Shown in pieces: positions 3,163 through 17,700 of a stretch of 21,139 nucleotides of DNA. The translations under genes and the position numbers were made by a program. The DNA comes from a virus. The notes below the pieces were generated by a model that saw nothing but the letters and a program-made list of their open reading frames with translations, was not told the DNA's origin and ran no database searches. The stretch spans positions 1-21,139 of IMG/VR virus record IMGVR_UViG_3300042914_002369; one strand, written 5' to 3'. Positions within the stretch are counted from its first letter, which is position 1. The number at the start of each line of letters is the position of its first letter.

Positions 3163-5109
3163 ATGAGCGTGCTGTGGGTTGATTTTGAAACGCGCAGCCG
3201 CTGTGACCTGACAACCAAAGGTGTGTACAACTACGCGCAAGACGGCAGCACGGACGTCTTGTGCATGTCGTATGCGTTCGACGATAATGAGGTCGTGACG
3301 TGGACGCCCGATCAGTCGTTCCCCGAGGCCGTGCGCCAACACAAGGGTCAGATACGCGCACATAATGCGACCTTCGAGCGTCTGATTTTCTGGTACGTCT
3401 TGCAGATCAACTTCGATCTTGAGCAGTTCTATTGCACTGCAACACAGGCGCGTGCTAACTGTGCGCCAGGGTCGCTTGAGGACGTGGGGCGGTTTGCTAG
3501 CGCAGACATGCGTAAGGACTACCGTGGGGCGCAACTGATAAGGCGGCTATGTATGCCGCAGGCAGACGGCAAGTTTTGCCAAGACGCGGCACTTTTTGCC
3601 GAGATGGTGGCCTACTGTGAACAAGACGTTCGCGCCATGCGAGCCATCTCCAAGGCCATGCGCGACCTATCAGCCGAAGAACTAGCTGACTACCATGTGA
3701 ATGAGCGCATCAACGACCGTGGTGTGCTGGTGGACGTGGCGTTGTGTAAGGCAGCGGTGCAGTACGCAAGCGATGAGTTAGTCGAGATCGAGCAGATCGT
3801 GGCTGACGTGACGCAGGGCGCGATTGCGAGCGTGCGTAGCCCTAAGATGAAGCAGTGGGTCATGGACCGCGTAGGACCGCAGGCGCTGGCGCTCATGGCG
3901 TCTTATAAGGACGGCGAGAAGAAGTATTCCATCGATAAGACCGTGCGAGCTAACTTGCTTGCGATGGACGATCCTGAGCAGGTGCCACCGGATGTCGCAG
4001 AAGTCATCCAGTGCGCTGACGATCTGTGGGCGTCGTCAGTTGCGAAGTTCAGCCGCCTAGCTGCGCTTGCTGATGATGAGGATCATCGGGTGCGTGGTGC
4101 GTTCGTATTTGCTGGCGGCTCGGCCACGGGTCGTGCGTCGTCTTACGGGGCACAAGTTCACAATTTCACGCGCAAGTGTGCGGATGACCCCGAGGCTGTG
4201 CGTCACGCGATGGTGCGCGGCCATAAGATCGTGCCGACCTACGGGCGACGCGTCACAGACGTGCTCAAGGGGATGCTGCGCCCTGCGCTGACGCCTGCGC
4301 CTGGGCATGTGCTCGTCGTAGCCGATTGGGCGGCGATCGAGGCGCGGATGAACCCGTGGCTGTCAGCGCACGCTACGTCTGAGGCTAAGTTGGACTTGTT
4401 TCGCACGGGCGCAGACATCTACAAACACAACGCCAGCCGGACGTTTAACGTGCCTGTTGACGCGATCGATAAAGAACAGCGGCAGATCGGGAAGACCCAA
4501 GAATTAGCCTGTGGTTACGGTGGTGGCGTGAGTGCGTTTGCTTCAATGGGGCGCATTTATGGCGTTAACTTACCAGAAGCTGATAGCAGGCGCATGGTGG
4601 ACGCGTGGCGACGCGCTAACCCGTGGGCTGTGCATTACTGGCAGGCGCTTGAGTCGGCGTATACGCGTGCGATGAGGAACCCAAAGTCTGAGTTTAAGGC
4701 TGGCCGTGTGACTTACTATTTTGATGGTCAGCACCTATGGTACGCGCTGCCGTCAGGACGCATCCTATGCTACCCCTACGCTCGCATGGACGCTGATGGT
4801 GTGTCTTATGCCAAGGCGTCATGGAAACCCGCGCAGGACGCCAAGGAATGGCCTCGTGCGCGGTTGTGGAAGGGTCTAGCGGCAGAGAACATCTGCCAAG
4901 CTGCGGCTAACGACATCTTGCGTGCGTCGCTGCGCCAACTCGACGGCGTGGTGTTGCACGTCCATGATGAGATTGTGCTTGAGGTGCCAGCGTCGCAGGC
5001 TGACGAAGCCGCGCAGGCGCTGCACCGCGTGATGTGCTCACCGCCTGCCTGGGCGCAGGGGTTACCTTTAGATGCTGAAGTTTCAACAATGGAGCGTTAC
5101 GGAAAATGA
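3163..5109 (+). CDS. polA: Family A DNA polymerase with 3'-5' exonuclease domain
   Basis: A 648-aa phage replicative DNA polymerase. The N-terminal DnaQ-like proofreading domain has Exo I in WVDFET (Asp7, Glu9), Exo II in HNATFERLI (about 67-75) and Exo III in YCEQD (Tyr151, Asp155). There is no 5' nuclease domain. The polymerase domain has TGRASS (about 322-327), motif A VADWAAIEAR (Asp388), motif B RQIGK..ELACGYG (Arg440, Lys444, Tyr452) and motif C HVHDEIVLEV (His601, Asp602, Glu603), so all catalytic residues are present. By the spacing R-x3-K-x3-L-x3-YG, the residue equivalent to E. coli Pol I Phe762 is Leu448. It overlaps the primase gene by ATGA. Family assignment is secure. Confidence 0.96.
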   Translation: MSVLWVDFETRSRCDLTTKGVYNYAQDGSTDVLCMSYAFDDNEVVTWTPDQSFPEAVRQHKGQIRAHNATFERLIFWYVLQINFDLEQFYCTATQARANCAPGSLEDVGRFASADMRKDYRGAQLIRRLCMPQADGKFCQDAALFAEMVAYCEQDVRAMRAISKAMRDLSAEELADYHVNERINDRGVLVDVALCKAAVQYASDELVEIEQIVADVTQGAIASVRSPKMKQWVMDRVGPQALALMASYKDGEKKYSIDKTVRANLLAMDDPEQVPPDVAEVIQCADDLWASSVAKFSRLAALADDEDHRVRGAFVFAGGSATGRASSYGAQVHNFTRKCADDPEAVRHAMVRGHKIVPTYGRRVTDVLKGMLRPALTPAPGHVLVVADWAAIEARMNPWLSAHATSEAKLDLFRTGADIYKHNASRTFNVPVDAIDKEQRQIGKTQELACGYGGGVSAFASMGRIYGVNLPEADSRRMVDAWRRANPWAVHYWQALESAYTRAMRNPKSEFKAGRVTYYFDGQHLWYALPSGRILCYPYARMDADGVSYAKASWKPAQDAKEWPRARLWKGLAAENICQAAANDILRASLRQLDGVVLHVHDEIVLEVPASQADEAAQALHRVMCSPPAWAQGLPLDAEVSTMERYGK

Positions 5110-7409
5110 CAACATTTATTGATTTTTTAATGTCCCTTGCACCAGAGGGCGAGACAGCGCTGCTGGTGCGACAAAAGCCGCTACTGAAAGACGGTCAATT
5201 GCAATTCCACGCTGACGGCGCGATCAAGTGTACGTGGCCTGCTTATCTGCCCAAGGACGCCAAGATCAAGGCCGATCAGGCTTGGTACGGCAACACAGCA
5301 TCGTTTATTGTCGATCGGTTCGGTGAGCACGTCTCAGCGTCAACGGCTAACTGTGAGTATTGCTTGGTGATGGTGCTTGATGACGTGGGCACTAAGAGTA
5401 AGACACCACCGCTTGCGCCGACGTGGGTGATGGAGACCTCGCCTGGTTCCTTCCAGTGGGGCTACGCCTTTGCTGAACAGCCTACCAAGGGTGAATTCGC
5501 TGCGGCCATGCGTGCGATCGCTGATGCAGGCTACACCGACCCTGGGGCGCTTAACTCGGTACGCAATTTTCGCTTACCTGGCTCGGTCAATCTCAAGCCT
5601 GGTCGCAACAGTTTTGCATCGCGCTTGGTCGAGTTTCATCCAGAGCGTGACTTCTCGCTCGCTCAGATATGTGAGGCGCTGGGCGTGTCGCCTGCTGAAG
5701 CTGATGGCGCAGGTCCACAGCCGATCAAGATCGTTGACACCGGTAACGATGATGTGTTCGCGTGGCTCGCCTCGCAGGGTCTTGTCGTATCTAAACCCAA
5801 CGCTGAGGGCTGGGCGGGTGTCATCTGCCCTAACCATGCTCAACACACGGACGGTAATCCAGAGGGGCGCTATAAGCCTTCCATGCGTGCGTACTGTTGT
5901 TTACACTCGCACTGCGTCGATCTTGACACCAAGGCTTTCTTGGCGTGGGTCGCTGAGAACGGCGGGCCTGCTCACGCGCTGGGGCTGCGCGATGATCTGC
6001 TGGCGAGCACTATGCAGAATACGCTTGAGAAGTTGGAGCCAAGCACCTTTTTTAGTGACGACGCCAAGAAACTGATCGAAGAGGTCGAGCGTAAAGAGCT
6101 TGGGCGTGTCGAGATGAAGGGCTGGTTTCAACGCTTTGCTTACATTCTCAGTGATGACTCGTTTTTTGATATGCAGGATCGGCGCGAAGTGCCGCGCTGG
6201 GTCTTTAACGCGCTCTATCGCCATGTCAATTGCGTATCCATCAACAGCAAACGCAAGATCGAAGCTGCAACGTGTTTCGATGAGCAGCGTCAGGCGATGG
6301 GTGCTCGCACCTTGGTCGGTGTGACCTACGCTGCAGGCGAGTCGATGCTGGTGACGCGCGATGGTGACGTGTACGGCAACCGTTGGCGCGATGCGCGGCC
6401 TGCGGTCGATAAAACGCTTGTGCGCGATATATCGCCTTGGCTTGAGCACTGCGAGCGCCTGGTGCCTGATGTAACCGAGCGTGAGCACTTGTTTAACATC
6501 ATGGCTTTTAAGCTTCAGCATCCTGATGTCAAGATCAATCACGCCGTGCTGCATGGCGGCGATCAAGGCTGTGGTAAAGACACCATGTGGGCGCCGCTTT
6601 TATGGGCCGTGTGCGGTCCAGGGCTGAAGAACAGGGGTTTGCTCGATAACGATACCTTAAACCTCCAGTGGGGCTATCAGCTTGAGTGTGAGATTCTCGT
6701 CATCAACGAGTTGAAAGAACCTGAAGCGGCAGCGCGTCGCGCACTGGCTAACCGCCTTAAACCGATCATCGCTGCACCTCCAGAGATGCTACCGATTAAC
6801 CGCAAGGGCTTGCACCCCTACGACATGCTCAATAGGATGTTCGTGCTGTCGTTTACCAATGATTCGCTCCCCATATCGCTTGACTCGCAGGATCGGCGTT
6901 GGTTCTGTATATGGTCGCGTGCACCTAGGATGGTCGATCGCCAGGCGCAACTATTGTGGGATTGGTACAAGTCCGAAGGCTTCGTTTCCATAGCCGCATG
7001 GCTCTATCAGCGCGACGTGAGCGCGTTTAATCCGGCTGCAACGCCAGGTTGGACCGAATTCAAATTCAATCTTATTGAGCACTCCATGAGCACCTCTGAG
7101 TCTTTTCTGGTCGAAATGATGCGTAACCGTCAAGGTGAGTTTAGCCGTGGTGTGGTGGGGTCGCCCTTCCATCTATTGATTGATCGCCTATCAGGTGGCT
7201 TGCCTGCTGGCGTGAAAATCCATCAGTCAGCGCTGCTCCATGCGCTCAAGGAGGCAGGTTGGGTTGACGTGGGTCGGTTAGCGTCATCTGAGTTTCAGAC
7301 CAAGAAGCATATCTTCGCCGTGTCTGAATTGGCGTCCAAGCTGTCGAAATCAGAGCTTAGGCGTATGGTCGAGGAGACAGCGCCAACGAAAATGGCGCTG
7401 GTCAAGTAG
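5106..7409 (+). CDS. Primase-polymerase / SF3-type replicative helicase
   Basis: A 767-aa bifunctional replication protein. The N-terminal region resembles archaeo-eukaryotic (RepB-type) primases: VMVLDDVG (Asp92, Asp93), TSPGSFQWGY (111-120) and RNFRLPGSVNLKPG (from about 153). A Cys/His cluster follows near 241-275 (CPNHAQH, then CCLHSHC), likely zinc-binding as in primase-helicase linkers. The C-terminal ATPase has Walker A GGDQGCGKDT (about 484-493), a Walker B-like ILVINELKE (about 528-536) and a sensor region SFTNDSLPISLDSQDRRWF, typical of DUF5906/D5-like helicases. It should prime and unwind DNA for the upstream polymerase, whose stop it overlaps. It is the last gene of the rightward operon. 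Domain architecture is well supported; oligomeric state and origin recognition are unknown. Confidence 0.92.
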   Translation: MTTFIDFLMSLAPEGETALLVRQKPLLKDGQLQFHADGAIKCTWPAYLPKDAKIKADQAWYGNTASFIVDRFGEHVSASTANCEYCLVMVLDDVGTKSKTPPLAPTWVMETSPGSFQWGYAFAEQPTKGEFAAAMRAIADAGYTDPGALNSVRNFRLPGSVNLKPGRNSFASRLVEFHPERDFSLAQICEALGVSPAEADGAGPQPIKIVDTGNDDVFAWLASQGLVVSKPNAEGWAGVICPNHAQHTDGNPEGRYKPSMRAYCCLHSHCVDLDTKAFLAWVAENGGPAHALGLRDDLLASTMQNTLEKLEPSTFFSDDAKKLIEEVERKELGRVEMKGWFQRFAYILSDDSFFDMQDRREVPRWVFNALYRHVNCVSINSKRKIEAATCFDEQRQAMGARTLVGVTYAAGESMLVTRDGDVYGNRWRDARPAVDKTLVRDISPWLEHCERLVPDVTEREHLFNIMAFKLQHPDVKINHAVLHGGDQGCGKDTMWAPLLWAVCGPGLKNRGLLDNDTLNLQWGYQLECEILVINELKEPEAAARRALANRLKPIIAAPPEMLPINRKGLHPYDMLNRMFVLSFTNDSLPISLDSQDRRWFCIWSRAPRMVDRQAQLLWDWYKSEGFVSIAAWLYQRDVSAFNPAATPGWTEFKFNLIEHSMSTSESFLVEMMRNRQGEFSRGVVGSPFHLLIDRLSGGLPAGVKIHQSALLHALKEAGWVDVGRLASSEFQTKKHIFAVSELASKLSKSELRRMVEETAPTKMALVK

Positions 7410-7846: not shown

Positions 7847-8041
7847 TCAATAAGTGGCTTCGCCGTACTGTTCAACGGTCCTTTTGTCGCGCATCAGTTT
7901 GATGTCACGTCGATTGAACGTATGCAACGACGGGAACGGCCACCCATTGGTGGCCGGTATTCTGACGACGTATTGACCGTTTTCTACGCGATCGATAACG
8001 CCGACGCCCTTCGGCGTCGTCACGCGTGTGTCGGGTTTCAT
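7847..8041 (-). CDS. Small basic protein with SH3/KOW-like beta segment
   Basis: A 64-aa protein beginning MKPDTRVTTPKGVGVIDRVE, followed by NGQYVVRIPATNGWPF. This pattern (x-V-x-T-P-K-G-x-G-x-I, then a turn and a Y-x-V-R strand) is typical of small phage proteins with an SH3-like or KOW-like barrel. The C-terminal half (TFNRRDIKLMRDKRTVEQYG) is basic. Its start overlaps the stop of the 237-aa gene by ATGA, so the two are translationally coupled. A nucleic-acid-binding or modulatory role is plausible but not shown. Confidence 0.7.
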   Translation of the reverse strand: MKPDTRVTTPKGVGVIDRVENGQYVVRIPATNGWPFPSLHTFNRRDIKLMRDKRTVEQYGEATY

Positions 8042-8751
8042 ACGTGCGCTGCCGCCTTGCCATGCGCGATTATGGCAATAGATACTGCATCGGGTTTAAG
8101 CGCACCGTCGCAAGCTTGGCACGTGATGCACTGGCGCCGATTGCCGCCTTCGGGAGACGCTGGGCAGTAGATTTCTTTATCAAGCTTAGGCGTGGCACTG
8201 ATTGCGATAACGCGGAAGGTGCGCCACCCCATAGCGCGTGCGACGTCGCGATCTTCGATCGAATCAGCGCTTGCCATGCATAACTCACGATGAGCTTGCG
8301 CAAAGGGTTGGCGCCATTGATGAGAATATCCGGTCCAACTATCAGCGTTAATTAACAGCGCGTACCAGACATCGTGCGGAATCATTGCTGGATCGCCGTA
8401 GGCGCCTAGTCTGACCTTGCGACCTTTCAGCTGTGCAGCTGCATGACTAAGATTGCGCGACATGTCGGGATAACTGCCGCGCTTGAAAGCTTTATAGATC
8501 GCACTAACAGACTTGCCAACGTCGACGTAGCAAGTGCGCTTGCGCTTATCATCGCCACGATGCACGCACGCGCCACAGATGCTAACGTCGTCAGCTGATT
8601 TAATAGCATCTAATGGATGCATGTCCGATCGCAAAATATAGGTTTGGACCATGTCGCCAGTCTTTACGTTCTTAGAACGAAGAACGGCAATACCGACAAT
8701 TGGCGCCGCATCGATCGGCGATTTCCCACGATAAAAGATAAATCCACGCAT
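8038..8751 (-). CDS. Conserved Cys-rich phage protein of unknown function
   Basis: A 237-aa protein of a type I recognise as recurring in phages without a known function. Two cysteine clusters are visible: CGACVHRG...RTC (59, 62, 74) and YCPASPEGGNRRQCITCQAC (196, 208, 211, 214), suggesting zinc ribbons or an Fe-S site. Conserved-looking core stretches are VRLGAYGDPAMIPHDVW (from about 113), WTGYSHQWR (about 139-147) and ADSIEDRDVARAMGWRTFR. The start at 8751 has AAGGGGA 6 nt upstream and skips 20 unlikely residues of a longer frame. It is the first gene of the leftward operon, and a TTGSCAA site lies over its ribosome-binding region. A metal-dependent role in DNA metabolism is conceivable, without direct evidence. 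Confidence 0.82.
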   Translation of the reverse strand: MRGFIFYRGKSPIDAAPIVGIAVLRSKNVKTGDMVQTYILRSDMHPLDAIKSADDVSICGACVHRGDDKRKRTCYVDVGKSVSAIYKAFKRGSYPDMSRNLSHAAAQLKGRKVRLGAYGDPAMIPHDVWYALLINADSWTGYSHQWRQPFAQAHRELCMASADSIEDRDVARAMGWRTFRVIAISATPKLDKEIYCPASPEGGNRRQCITCQACDGALKPDAVSIAIIAHGKAAAHV

Positions 8752-8782
8752 TGGCAATCCCCTTTTGGTTGTTTGAGCGTTC

Positions 8783-8811
8783 AGTGTAAGACATTCTTTT
8801 GTAGATTGCAA
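8783..8811 (-). promoter_or_regulatory. Candidate leftward promoter of the Cys-rich protein operon
   Basis: Minus-strand TTGCAA (8811-8806) and TACACT (8788-8783) with a 17-nt spacer, each matching 4 of 6 consensus positions. Transcription would start near 8776, about 25 nt before the ATG at 8751. TTGSCAA sites flank it at 8825-8831 (just upstream of -35) and 8751-8757 (leader). Confidence 0.35.
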
Positions 8812-9091
8812 AGTATGGGTCGAATTGGCAATTAAATTTTATAGCGATGGCAATGGAAAAAGGGAGAATTGCCAATGAGCGGGGACTGTAAGCGTCTGAT
8901 TCGATGAGGCTTTCTCGGCTATTGGCAAAATTGTCATCGTTTTTTTGAAAAAAAGAGGGGGGGTGATGTATGTTAGTCGGCGTCGACTTAAAAAGGCTGA
9001 CAATTTTGCCAATATTGCCAAGGTTTTGGCCCCGATGAGGGACGCCAAATCACCGCGCCAAACCTCTCTTTGACGGTTTTCTCTCCAATCA

Positions 9092-9134
9092 TTGGCAATC
9101 TTGGCAATGGCAAACGAATTGCCAAGATTGCCAA
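9092..9134. repeat. 17-bp perfect inverted repeat made of four TTGSCAA sites
   Basis: Positions 9092-9108 and 9118-9134 are perfect reverse complements separated by a 9-nt loop (GGCAAACGA). Each arm contains two heptamers spaced 9 bp. It could extrude as a hairpin or hold paired protein dimers. A second, imperfect copy pairs 9149-9164 with 9186-9201 (one mismatch). Confidence 0.85.
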
Positions 9135-9383
9135 ACATCAAAGGGCTATTGGCACTCTTGGCAACATAAAAACCAATTGCCAATCTTGCCAAGATTGCCA
9201 ATGTCACACCGACCCCGACCCCGATCGACCACGCACCAGGCACGCGCTGCCAGGCACATACCGTTATGCCGATTAGATCGGTCATCGTTCTGTTTGCTAG
9301 ATCGCTTTTTGCAGTTGGCTTTTTGCTGGCAAAGCCCCCCCCAGGGCCGACGGCCTGGCCGGTCAGGGCCGGTGGGTCCACAA

Positions 9384-9440
9384 GAAATTTTTTTATTTTT
9401 ACCAGCCATCAATCTAAAATTTTTTTTTTATTTTTAAAAA
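9384..9440. other. AT-rich T-tract stretch, possible DNA unwinding element
   Basis: Two T-tract blocks, T7-A-T5 (9388-9400) and T10-A-T5 followed by A5 (9420-9440), flank a mixed AT-rich segment. This is by far the most AT-rich part of the intergenic region and lies beside GC-rich palindromes (about 9335-9380) and the TTGSCAA cluster. The arrangement resembles an unwinding element next to iterons, but no function is proven. Confidence 0.45.
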
Positions 9441-9505
9441 TCCAACACGCCTATACAAAAGTATTAGAATCCCTTACGCTTAGGTCATCTTGGTAAAATT
9501 GGCAT

Positions 9506-9964
9506 ATGTTTAAAAGTCTTCCTCTTACAACGCGTGAGATCAAAGCGACCGAAGCGGTACTGGAGCGTATATACGACGCTGCGTATCTAGGTTTGAAAGA
9601 AGATTCGTTGGCGTTAGCAGCAGGGTTGTTACCTGTAGAGTACCGGCTCTTGAAACAGCATGACAAACTTGCCGAGATTGCCGAACTCAAGGGACGCGCT
9701 GATAGTGAGCGCGAGCACAGCCAGCACATGTTGAACGCAGCGCGGCAAGGCGACGCTAAGGCGGCGCTAGAGATACTGAAGCACACGCATGGTTGGGTCG
9801 CCAAGCAGGCGGTGAGTATTGAGGTGGACCAGCGCATCAGCGTGATCGACGCGCTCAGAGCGGCGGAGACACGCGTTGATGAGAATAAAGTGATTGACCT
9901 AATACCAGAAAGCGAACCGCATATAAATATACCCAAGATAGAAAATAAACAGACTGTGGGGTAA
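9506..9964 (+). CDS. terS: Terminase small subunit
   Basis: A 152-aa protein with the features of podovirus-type small terminases, which recognise the packaging site and load the large subunit. An N-terminal helix-turn-helix-like segment (LERIYDAAYLGLKEDSLALA, then AGLLPVEYRLL) is followed by a conserved helical stretch, LKGRADSEREHSQHMLNAA with DAKAALEILKHTHGWV, and a charged C-terminus. Its place directly before the large terminase, apart from an inserted HNH gene, supports the call. The ATG at 9506 lacks a Shine-Dalgarno site. Two degenerate TTGSCAA sites (9490, 9499) abut it, so the gene may be translated from a short leader or controlled through these sites. Confidence 0.8.
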   Translation: MFKSLPLTTREIKATEAVLERIYDAAYLGLKEDSLALAAGLLPVEYRLLKQHDKLAEIAELKGRADSEREHSQHMLNAARQGDAKAALEILKHTHGWVAKQAVSIEVDQRISVIDALRAAETRVDENKVIDLIPESEPHINIPKIENKQTVG

Positions 9965-9970
9965 TTGGTG

Positions 9971-9976
9971 TATAAT
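9971..9976 (+). promoter_or_regulatory. Consensus TATAAT -10 box before the HNH gene
   Basis: A perfect TATAAT sits 7 nt after the terS stop, with no good -35 hexamer at 16-18 nt. Transcription from here would start near 9983 and reach the HNH gene at 9998. Free-standing homing endonucleases often carry their own promoter. It could also be chance. Confidence 0.3.
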
Positions 9977-9997
9977 GTTGCTTTATTGGAGGAACCA

Positions 9998-10486
9998 ATG
10001 GCAAAAGCAACATTAAGCGACCGTTTTTGGGAGAAAGTTGATAAGCGCGGCCCAAACGATTGTTGGCTTTGGACGGCCACAAAAACTAGTTTTGGGTACG
10101 GCAGCTTTCGTATGGGTAGCTTGACCGATGGGACACGGCGCAAAGAGATGGCGCACCGCATAGCGTATACGTTAGCCACTGGCGAACAAATACCTAAAGG
10201 TAAAGTTGTCATGCACTTTTGCGACAACCCTACTTGCGTAAACCCTGCTCACTTAAGTATTGGTACATACAGCGAGAATGGCAAAGCCGCTTACGATCGT
10301 AATCGCCGCGTATCAACGATAAAACCAGGCGAAGATAGCCCTCGCGCTAAGTTAACGGTTGAGCAGGTTGAATATATTCGTGCAGTCGGTAAGCAGCGTA
10401 CTTTGCGTGATCTAGCAGTTGAATTTAACGTCAGCCGGTCTACGATTGATGCGGTTAGACGCGGTGTAAATTGGAAGGAAATGTAA
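9998..10486 (+). CDS. HNH homing endonuclease with C-terminal HTH
   Basis: A 162-aa free-standing HNH_3-type endonuclease, a selfish gene that cuts related genomes at its insertion site. The catalytic fold is visible as MAHRIAYTLATGEQIPKG, then VMHFCDNPTCVNPAHLSIGT (His73, Cys75 and Cys80, His85) and YSENGKAAYDRNR. The C-terminus has a DNA-binding module of the resolvase-like HTH type, AKLTVEQVEYIRAV followed by LRDLAVEFNVSRSTIDAVRR. GGAGGA 4 nt before ATG 9998 decides this start over an earlier in-frame codon at 9965. The gene separates the two terminase genes and ends directly before the TTG start of terL. Confidence 0.92.
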   Translation: MAKATLSDRFWEKVDKRGPNDCWLWTATKTSFGYGSFRMGSLTDGTRRKEMAHRIAYTLATGEQIPKGKVVMHFCDNPTCVNPAHLSIGTYSENGKAAYDRNRRVSTIKPGEDSPRAKLTVEQVEYIRAVGKQRTLRDLAVEFNVSRSTIDAVRRGVNWKEM

Positions 10487-17232: not shown

Positions 17233-17700
17233 GTGATTACACAGGAACGGCTAAAAGAATTATTTACTTACAAAGATGGTCAATTTATTGACCGCAAAAG
17301 AAACGCAGTCAAGACGATTGTTCCTATTACAAGCTGTCAGCGTTATTGCAGAATCGTAATAGACAAAAAAGCATACAGATTTCATAGGATGGTGTTTTTA
17401 TATCACAAAGGTTACTTGCCAAAAATTATTGATCATATTGACAATGACAGAGCAAATAATCGAATTGAAAATTTGCGTGACGTTACGCAACAGCAAAACT
17501 GCTTAAATAGAATTGCTCATAAAAACAATAAATCCGGGTATAAAAATGTTCATTGGGCAAAAGCAATGAATAAATGGTGCGTACTTGTAAATATTCTTAA
17601 AAAAAGAAAAGTTATTGGTTATTTTGATGATGTGGAATTGGCTGGCTTTGTTGCTCAAGAAGCACGAAATAAATTTCACGGTCAGTTTGCTTGCCACTAA
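17233..17700 (+). CDS. HNH endonuclease with AP2-type DNA-binding domain
   Basis: A 155-aa free-standing homing endonuclease of the HNH_3 plus AP2 class. The HNH region spans about 48-85: YRFHRMVFLYHKGYLPKI, then IDHIDNDRANNRIENLRDVT (His68, Asn71 and Asn80 area). The C-terminal AP2 domain spans about 99-150: NKSGYKNVHWAKAMNKWCV and then RKVIGYFDDVELAGFVAQEA. The start is GTG at 17233 with AGGA 8 nt upstream. The gene is clearly more AT-rich than the genes on either side, a sign of separate origin, and it interrupts the fibre gene cluster. Its target site is unknown. Confidence 0.92.
   Translation: MITQERLKELFTYKDGQFIDRKRNAVKTIVPITSCQRYCRIVIDKKAYRFHRMVFLYHKGYLPKIIDHIDNDRANNRIENLRDVTQQQNCLNRIAHKNNKSGYKNVHWAKAMNKWCVLVNILKKRKVIGYFDDVELAGFVAQEARNKFHGQFACH

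Follow-up and report, generated by a model that had tools for sequence, protein, structure and literature searches.

Introduction

SaPI Rep and SCCmec Cch2 are initiator helicases that use a C-terminal domain to recognise a short-repeat origin close to the helicase's own gene; in the sections of the source drawn on here, SaPI Rep appears to bind as two hexamers, the C-terminal domain of Cch2 alone bound its repeats, and SaPI Rep is likened to SV40 T antigen and papillomavirus E1 (PMC7581432). In the parts of two other papers used here, a likeness is drawn between the C962R tail and the origin-binding winged-helix domain of P4 (PMC10516667), and the primase and helicase of P4 are placed in one protein (PMC7145576). 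The NrS-1 primase-polymerase reads TTTGGTTA on the template, a property ascribed to a helix-bundle domain in the portions of the sources drawn on (PMC8718748, PMC7102993).

The locus described here lies in a 21,139-base virus record (the whole stretch analysed, hereafter the window), which encodes a P22-like portal, DNA polymerase A, a DUF5906 primase-helicase and a terminase. Repeat sites in facing pairs are also a feature of the origins of two SF3 helicase initiators, SV40 T antigen and papillomavirus E1, and point to paired rings; these proteins bind DNA through an N-terminal domain, whereas the one proposed here is C-terminal, and the likeness to our locus is drawn on site layout. The origin-binding domain of phage P4 alpha was reportedly the subject of Yeo et al. 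2002. As far as the P4 sources cited above go, P4 alpha resembles our candidate in being a replication protein with a winged-helix origin-binding domain, which is predicted in the present case.

The array of the window is probably a set of phage replication-origin iterons, and the DUF5906 primase-helicase would bind them in duplex form through its predicted C-terminal winged helix. As in the cited sections on SaPI Rep and Cch2, a C-terminal origin-reading helicase would be combined with a short-repeat origin; unlike these systems, the present one belongs to a phage family, its array lies kilobases from the primase beside terS, and it shows facing dyads, a 9-bp pitch, a fixed gap and many iteron types tied to wing residues. 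NrS-1 shares a homologous helicase core (E 5e-10) and, in the cited portions, a hexameric SF3 ring; unlike in NrS-1, the covariation is C-terminal, and TTTGGTTA is not in the array (one chance-level match in the window, at 17698, and none in the array region). No earlier description of such arrays was recognised in the literature searched, which was covered largely at listing level, and absence from print is not claimed.

Results

The repeat array of the window

The array lies in a gap of about 750 bp between two divergent genes, a leftward gene on one side and terS on the other. The relevant features are:

5106-7409, plus strand: primase-helicase (DUF5906), proposed initiator binding the array (Pfam DUF5906 E 6e-9; PHROG DNA primase; NrS-1 primase-helicase structure E 5e-10 over 461-607)
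7221-7322, plus strand: primase codons 706-739, predicted helix 707-716 and wing hairpin 719-739, with type-determining residues 726, 728 and 731
8751-8757, unstranded: single site over the ATG/ribosome-binding region of the leftward gene
8825-8831, unstranded: single site
8869-8875, unstranded: single site
8922-8937, minus strand: left inverted dyad of the core, TTGGCAA AA TTGTCAT; inverted dyad position kept in relatives, forming the far facing pair round an AT-rich stretch in P and T relatives
8938-8997, unstranded: core spacer, where relatives have an AT-rich stretch (only 57% AT in the window)
8997-9021, plus strand: core tandem iterons CTGACAA TT TTGCCAA TA TTGCCAA, the most conserved element, with a cognate core in other types
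9092-9107, minus strand: dyad 1, first arm of the perfect hairpin
9119-9134, plus strand: dyad 2, second hairpin arm, facing dyad 1 across 11 bp
9149-9164, minus strand: dyad 3, TTGGCAC TC TTGGCAA
9177-9201, plus strand: tandem triple of TTGCCAA at 9-bp pitch, facing dyad 3 across 12 bp
9481-9505, minus strand: degenerate triple TAGGTCA TC TTGGTAA AA TTGGCAT at 9-bp pitch, directly 5' of the terS start codon (57/57 A-type loci)
9506-9964, plus strand: gene in the terS position, named from its place before terL, without Pfam, PHROG or NCBIfam match

The heptamer TTGSCAA occurs 13 times in 8752-9505 (Markov mean 0.53, maximum 4 across 2000), and its tandem form TTGSCAANNTTGSCAA (TTGSCAA-NN-TTGSCAA) five times, all within 9006-9201 (0 in 100 window shuffles); the longest perfect stem is 17 bp (9 or less in 30 resamples). 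An earlier sequence-only reading had described two hairpins at this place, and recomputation confirmed its coordinates: 9092-9108 and 9118-9134 are exact reverse complements (17 bp) with a loop of 9 nt, 9149-9164 pairs with 9186-9201 with one mismatch, and 9176-9202 is its own reverse complement save for three central C (9180, 9189 and 9198). That reading had counted nine exact or near sites; 9092-9202 contains eight exact TTGSCAA plus TTGGCAC at 9149 and ATGGCAA at 9107. The array is broader than had been described, extending over 8751-9201 with the degenerate triple 9481-9505 in addition, and its underlying regularity is a 9-bp pitch. That reading had also overlooked that TTGSCAA is a near-palindrome, differing from its own reverse complement at the centre base only, so that two dyads with opposite centre bases automatically give complementary arms.

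Several other elements of the window were characterized. The stretch 9336-9400 contains a C-run, a GC-rich stretch and a ACAAGAAATTTTTTTATTTTT-like tract before terS, and is common across iteron types (the tract is present in 55/57 A-type loci); it is an element separate from the array, perhaps related to packaging or transcription. The 257-aa gene at 8038-8811 belongs to PHROG 2554 (function not given by PHROG) and is found in many otherwise different phages; it was rejected as the array reader, since it occurs in other phages without arrays. An HNH endonuclease at 9965-10486, between terS and terL, had a tblastn match in the window only, of 94 loci/pieces, and is therefore likely a recent insertion. 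The protein encoded at 2285-2938 is assigned to nucleotidyltransferases by PHROG, which leaves its working label as an SSB (SSB2815) unsupported; VRRNUC is likewise a working label. Searches of Rfam and, by DNA, of the Phages collection gave no match, and no switch of GC skew was seen at the array. Among the ten GTDB genome loci with primase relatives are metagenome bins that bear the names of Rhodoferax, Burkholderiaceae and other betaproteobacteria; as bins can contain stray phage contigs, a betaproteobacterial host is a hint only.

Conservation in close relatives

IMG/VR was scanned twice with flanking genes (59 and 80 loci). Relatives with about 90% or higher TerS identity carry 6-14 exact TTGSCAA sites (type A) wherever the upstream sequence suffices. 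Facing dyads at a gap of 11-12 bp, with at most 4 of the 28 site bases differing, were present in 53/53 relatives having at least 700 bp upstream (window included), and were exact in 36 of these 53; the layout occurs at one place per genome. When gaps of 3-39 bp were tried in 18 A-type loci, a gap of 11 was found in 18, 12 in 4, 13 in 3, 20 in 11, 21 in 3 (the last two being one further 9-bp step) and 38 in 1, the rest giving 0. The core GACAATY-TTGCCAA-NN-TTGCCAA was present in 51/53 A-type loci. Long tandem repeats of short units, of the GACCG type, lie between the array and terS in L068, L081 and L164 (G007).

The array persists in relatives whose leftward genes differ, and the TTGSCAA site at the leftward start codon (8749-8757) is retained by several relatives with a different leftward gene. 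These observations bear on an operator array, in which the sites would control two divergent transcripts through the same protein or another repressor, without a role in replication. The region does lie between divergent genes, with sites at the leftward gene start (8751) and directly before terS (9481-9505, 57/57), and autoregulation through the degenerate triple is possible; promoter-like sites (three vs. 1.3 expected) were not informative on this point. An array that stays while the leftward genes change argues against operator function, as does the primase-helicase being the sole protein seen to covary with site type (see below), and we consider it unlikely.

Complementarity of the hairpin arms

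The sequence-only reading had held that the arms are kept complementary as well as repeated, and had proposed that compensatory changes be sought in relatives. No significant excess of complementarity was found over arms shuffled between hairpins for any of the three types compared (A, and P and T described below). In type A (16 distinct hairpins), 24/32 variable cells were complementary (shuffled 22.9 +/- 1.0, p 0.43); the values were 64/88 for the 22 distinct hairpins of type P (shuffled 61.3 +/- 1.2, p 0.059, borderline) and 15/24 for the 6 of type T (shuffled 12.7 +/- 2.1, p 0.32). The degenerate base of P sites was complementary in 11/22 hairpins only. Arms varying without compensation, which that reading had named as the pattern contrary to it, were thus found in good part, type P being borderline (p 0.059). 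In L099, the 11-bp gap is retained inside a tandem repeat of 36 bp in which pairing between the arms has been lost; such fixed geometry without complementarity favours assembly of protein.

Computed single-strand folding gave a strong fold (z -9.5 and -10.6), although not as the two hairpins described: the best fold pairs the outer blocks, as near-palindromic repeats are expected to do. A true cruciform or single-strand hairpin origin, recognised once extruded, would accord with the perfect 17-bp stem and the strong predicted fold, and NrS-1 PrimPol does read a single-strand template motif in the part of the source used (PMC8718748). Such an origin is nevertheless very unlikely here: hairpins show no significant excess of internal complementarity (P borderline at 0.059), the layout of L099 persists without pairing, the core dyad at 9006-9021, which is conserved best, lacks an inverted partner nearby, and TTTGGTTA is absent from the region. 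Of the three functions that had been suggested, cruciform extrusion or single-strand recognition is left unsupported by the complementarity test and L099; recognition by the primase gains from the covariation of repeat type with its C-terminal wing, in a mode other than the single-strand one, which is unsupported; and cooperative dimer binding pointed in the right direction, as facing dyads holding a fixed gap would suggest.

Other iteron types with the same layout

A motif-blind search counted 7-mers recurring at lag 9: the window and 13/26 tested relatives had 18-41 (Markov means at most 2.1, maxima up to 13); of the other tested relatives, three scored 12-14 and ten 7 or less, and a clear 9-bp array was not seen in some distant relatives. 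Relatives with 74% TerS identity carry TGACCNA iterons. In a scan by primase alignment (80 loci), at least 15 lag-9 pairs per 450-bp stretch downstream of the primase were present in 65/82 loci, by our own count and without shuffles for this set. The gene order nuclease, polymerase, primase, array, terS, terL, portal was constant wherever the flanks reach. The 82 loci with terS comprised 35 of type P (TGACCNA), 16 of type T (GTCCACA), 13 of type A (TTGSCAA) and 2 of type X (ACTACC), with 16 left unassigned; inspection by eye added the types G[ACG]CCACA, TTGCCTACA, TGACTRACA and TGGCTAAA. In more distant relatives, the pitch, the gap and the place between primase and terminase genes are kept and the letters are changed.

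Close facing dyads in P and A have a start-to-start distance of 27-28 bp in 35/35 distinct cases; T has 31-32 bp in 6, an identical geometry once the shifted heptamer frame is allowed for. Spacings other than this vary. Far facing pairs in P and T relatives lie 91-126 bp apart (start to start) and contain a 40-nt stretch of 75-88% AT in 33/35 distinct cases, the richest 40 nt of random stretches from the same region averaging 62%; the exceptions, not of the AT-rich kind, are L245 and the second pair of L232.

The array upstream of terS in L226 is chimeric, with a TGACCNA (P) core half, a GTCCACA (T) half on the terS side and a P-type primase wing, as if the array had arisen by recombination. 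L144 (MW202483) encodes at 7083-7379 a small protein with a DnaA C-terminal DNA-binding domain (Bac_DnaA_C), about 2.5 kb from the origin-like region; this protein was not retained as a candidate.

The primase wing and the repeat type

Columns of six proteins were scanned for mutual information with type (P vs. T, rows 97% alike removed), the types being defined on the same loci as scanned and the rows sharing ancestry. Primase residues 726, 728 and 731 separate the types without exception (33 primases: 20 P and 13 T; 0.97 bit, the maximum), being A/S vs. K, G/A/S vs. R and P/Q/T vs. D, respectively, and the best 30-residue primase windows start at residues 700-723. No column of the five other shared proteins fully separates P from T: the best reached 0.69 bit in NUC2800, 0.64 in PolA, 0.57 in TerL, 0.50 in TerS (26 P, 14 T) and 0.35 in the 2285-2938 protein, and in TerS the within/between difference exceeded 0.004 in no stretch.

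The TerS values weigh on a pac or cos packaging signal recognised by the adjoining small terminase. The array is upstream of terS in syntenic loci, and the separate GC-rich and poly-T element closer to terS is kept across types; the type of the sites, however, does not follow TerS (best column 0.50 bit), which makes such a signal extremely improbable. Fixed genome ends were also considered as evidence of cos and rejected: contig ends near terS do not coincide, and the five records checked have no terminal repeats.

The wing reads LAS[SA]E[FY][QST]TKK in type A, [VIL][AS]S[GAS][DE]x[PQT][ST]KK in P, LKSRxxDxKK in T, and LKSRA[NYH]D[NG]RK where the iterons are G[ACG]CCACA. L157 and L173 have A-like wings (LASSEYSTKK) yet few sites, reading TACCCAAA or TGACCCAAA. 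Iterons ending in ACA were found in 27/28 called loci with R728 and 0/47 without it (24 loci uncalled), a rule framed after part of the data had been seen. The exception, L296, has a core reading GTCCGCA CT GCCCACA and looks like a miscall of the regex.

The C-terminal domain is predicted to be a winged helix with the type-determining residues in its wing: the AlphaFold2 model (64 sequences; mean pLDDT 75.7, pTM 0.63) has helices at 688-698 and 707-716, strands at 719-725 and 734-739, and a loop at 726-733. Fold searches gave weak matches throughout, many of them to winged-helix domains (Z up to 6.1, none at Foldseek E <0.001); the P4 origin-binding structure was not among the rows, and a PDB sequence search with the C-terminal alignment returned chance-level rows only. 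The same protein contains an SF3/D5-type helicase domain (DUF5906 E 6e-9; NrS-1 helicase E 5e-10) and a candidate primase domain, as would be expected of the P4 and SaPI5 form, the latter domain matching RepB_primase at 21.7 bits, under the 24.3 cut-off, and PHROG 1156 “DNA primase” over residues 407-693 only. An iteron array downstream of the primase gene, its type tracking the C-terminal domain, fits a self-loading initiator helicase with a C-terminal origin-binding domain, of the SaPI Rep or P4 alpha type.

Ancestry and linkage of wing and array

On a tree of primase residues 1-690, P and T change four times, and the residue changes each time (4/4 independent pairs). With 66 rows there were nine independent pairs, of which 7 switched together, 0 in the opposite sense and 2 were tied (p 0.016), under a loose class rule that conflicts with R728 in L157, L173 and L280. 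Most likely, then, a short DNA-reading loop of the primase and its putative docking sites changed together several times in evolution.

Close pairs of opposite type localise the change. The primases of L241 (T) and L243 (P) differ at 5/699 residues up to 699, at 0 in 700-717 and at 15/28 in 718-745; for L204 and L229 the same three segments have 20, 0 and 14 differences. DNA identity in L241/L243 is 49-61% over nt 2176-2325 and returns to 81-95% until nt 2550; in L204/L229 it is 43-53% over nt 2176-2400 and returns to 83-88% until nt 2625. Downstream of the primase end, the array falls within another stretch of divergence. Because identity recovers between the wing end and the array, wing and array are, in these two pairs, separate tracts that changed together. 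L232/L210 showed no sharp drop at the wing (72-77%, with 73-87% around it).

Hitch-hiking, in which a single recombination tract carries both wing and array and the sites are read by the product of another gene, would fit an array downstream of the primase end and an intervening region that is often diverged. It is quite unlikely given the recovery of homology between wing end and array (81-95% in L241/L243, 83-88% in L204/L229), the full separation of types by three wing columns only, and the lack of an intervening ORF family common to most loci. No ORF family between primase and terS occurred in more than 34/81 loci, in a gene comparison that spanned the fetched flanks, an array reader encoded beyond them being possible.

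Prediction on fresh contigs

The residue rule was fixed first, and the arrays in 26 fresh contigs were read afterwards. Seven predictions were right and 4 wrong, 6 contigs had a prediction without an array call and 9 had no prediction; by class, the called loci were right in 6/6 cases for CCACA, 1/4 for TGACC and 0/1 for TTGSCAA. L286 was a plain miss (TGACC predicted, TTGSCAA present). In the other three misses (L282, L287 and L288) terS was not found, so that several kb including coding DNA were counted. Seven of the 33 loci were left out as non-blind, their motifs having already been shown (4 right, 1 without call, 2 without prediction).

Discussion

Under the origin reading that we favour, each TTGSCAA would be bound as duplex DNA by the primase through its C-terminal winged helix. 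Tandem dyads at 9-bp pitch face each other at the fixed gap of 11-12 bp, or else with an interval between them that most relatives have rich in AT; primase subunits on facing dyads would load helicase rings in opposite directions, melt the core and prime synthesis. The mechanism proposed is modelled on the descriptions of SaPI Rep, Cch2 and the P4 origin-binding domain.

A candidate origin and its putative initiator can thus be named, from sequence alone, for a large family of uncultured phages. The natural near-isogenic pairs differ mainly in wing and repeats, and allow a direct test, with a 130-residue domain and short oligonucleotides, of how initiator-origin specificity evolves. A further reading, which we regard as possible rather than probable, is a lock-and-key recognition of origins, in which a wing stretch of about 25-50 residues would have been repeatedly exchanged along with the matching array, giving at least six origin specificities within an otherwise constant replisome. 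If so, recognition of the ACA repeat end by Arg728 would make up one letter of the code, and the exchange would perhaps avoid cross-talk among co-infecting relatives or keep satellites from stealing the initiator.
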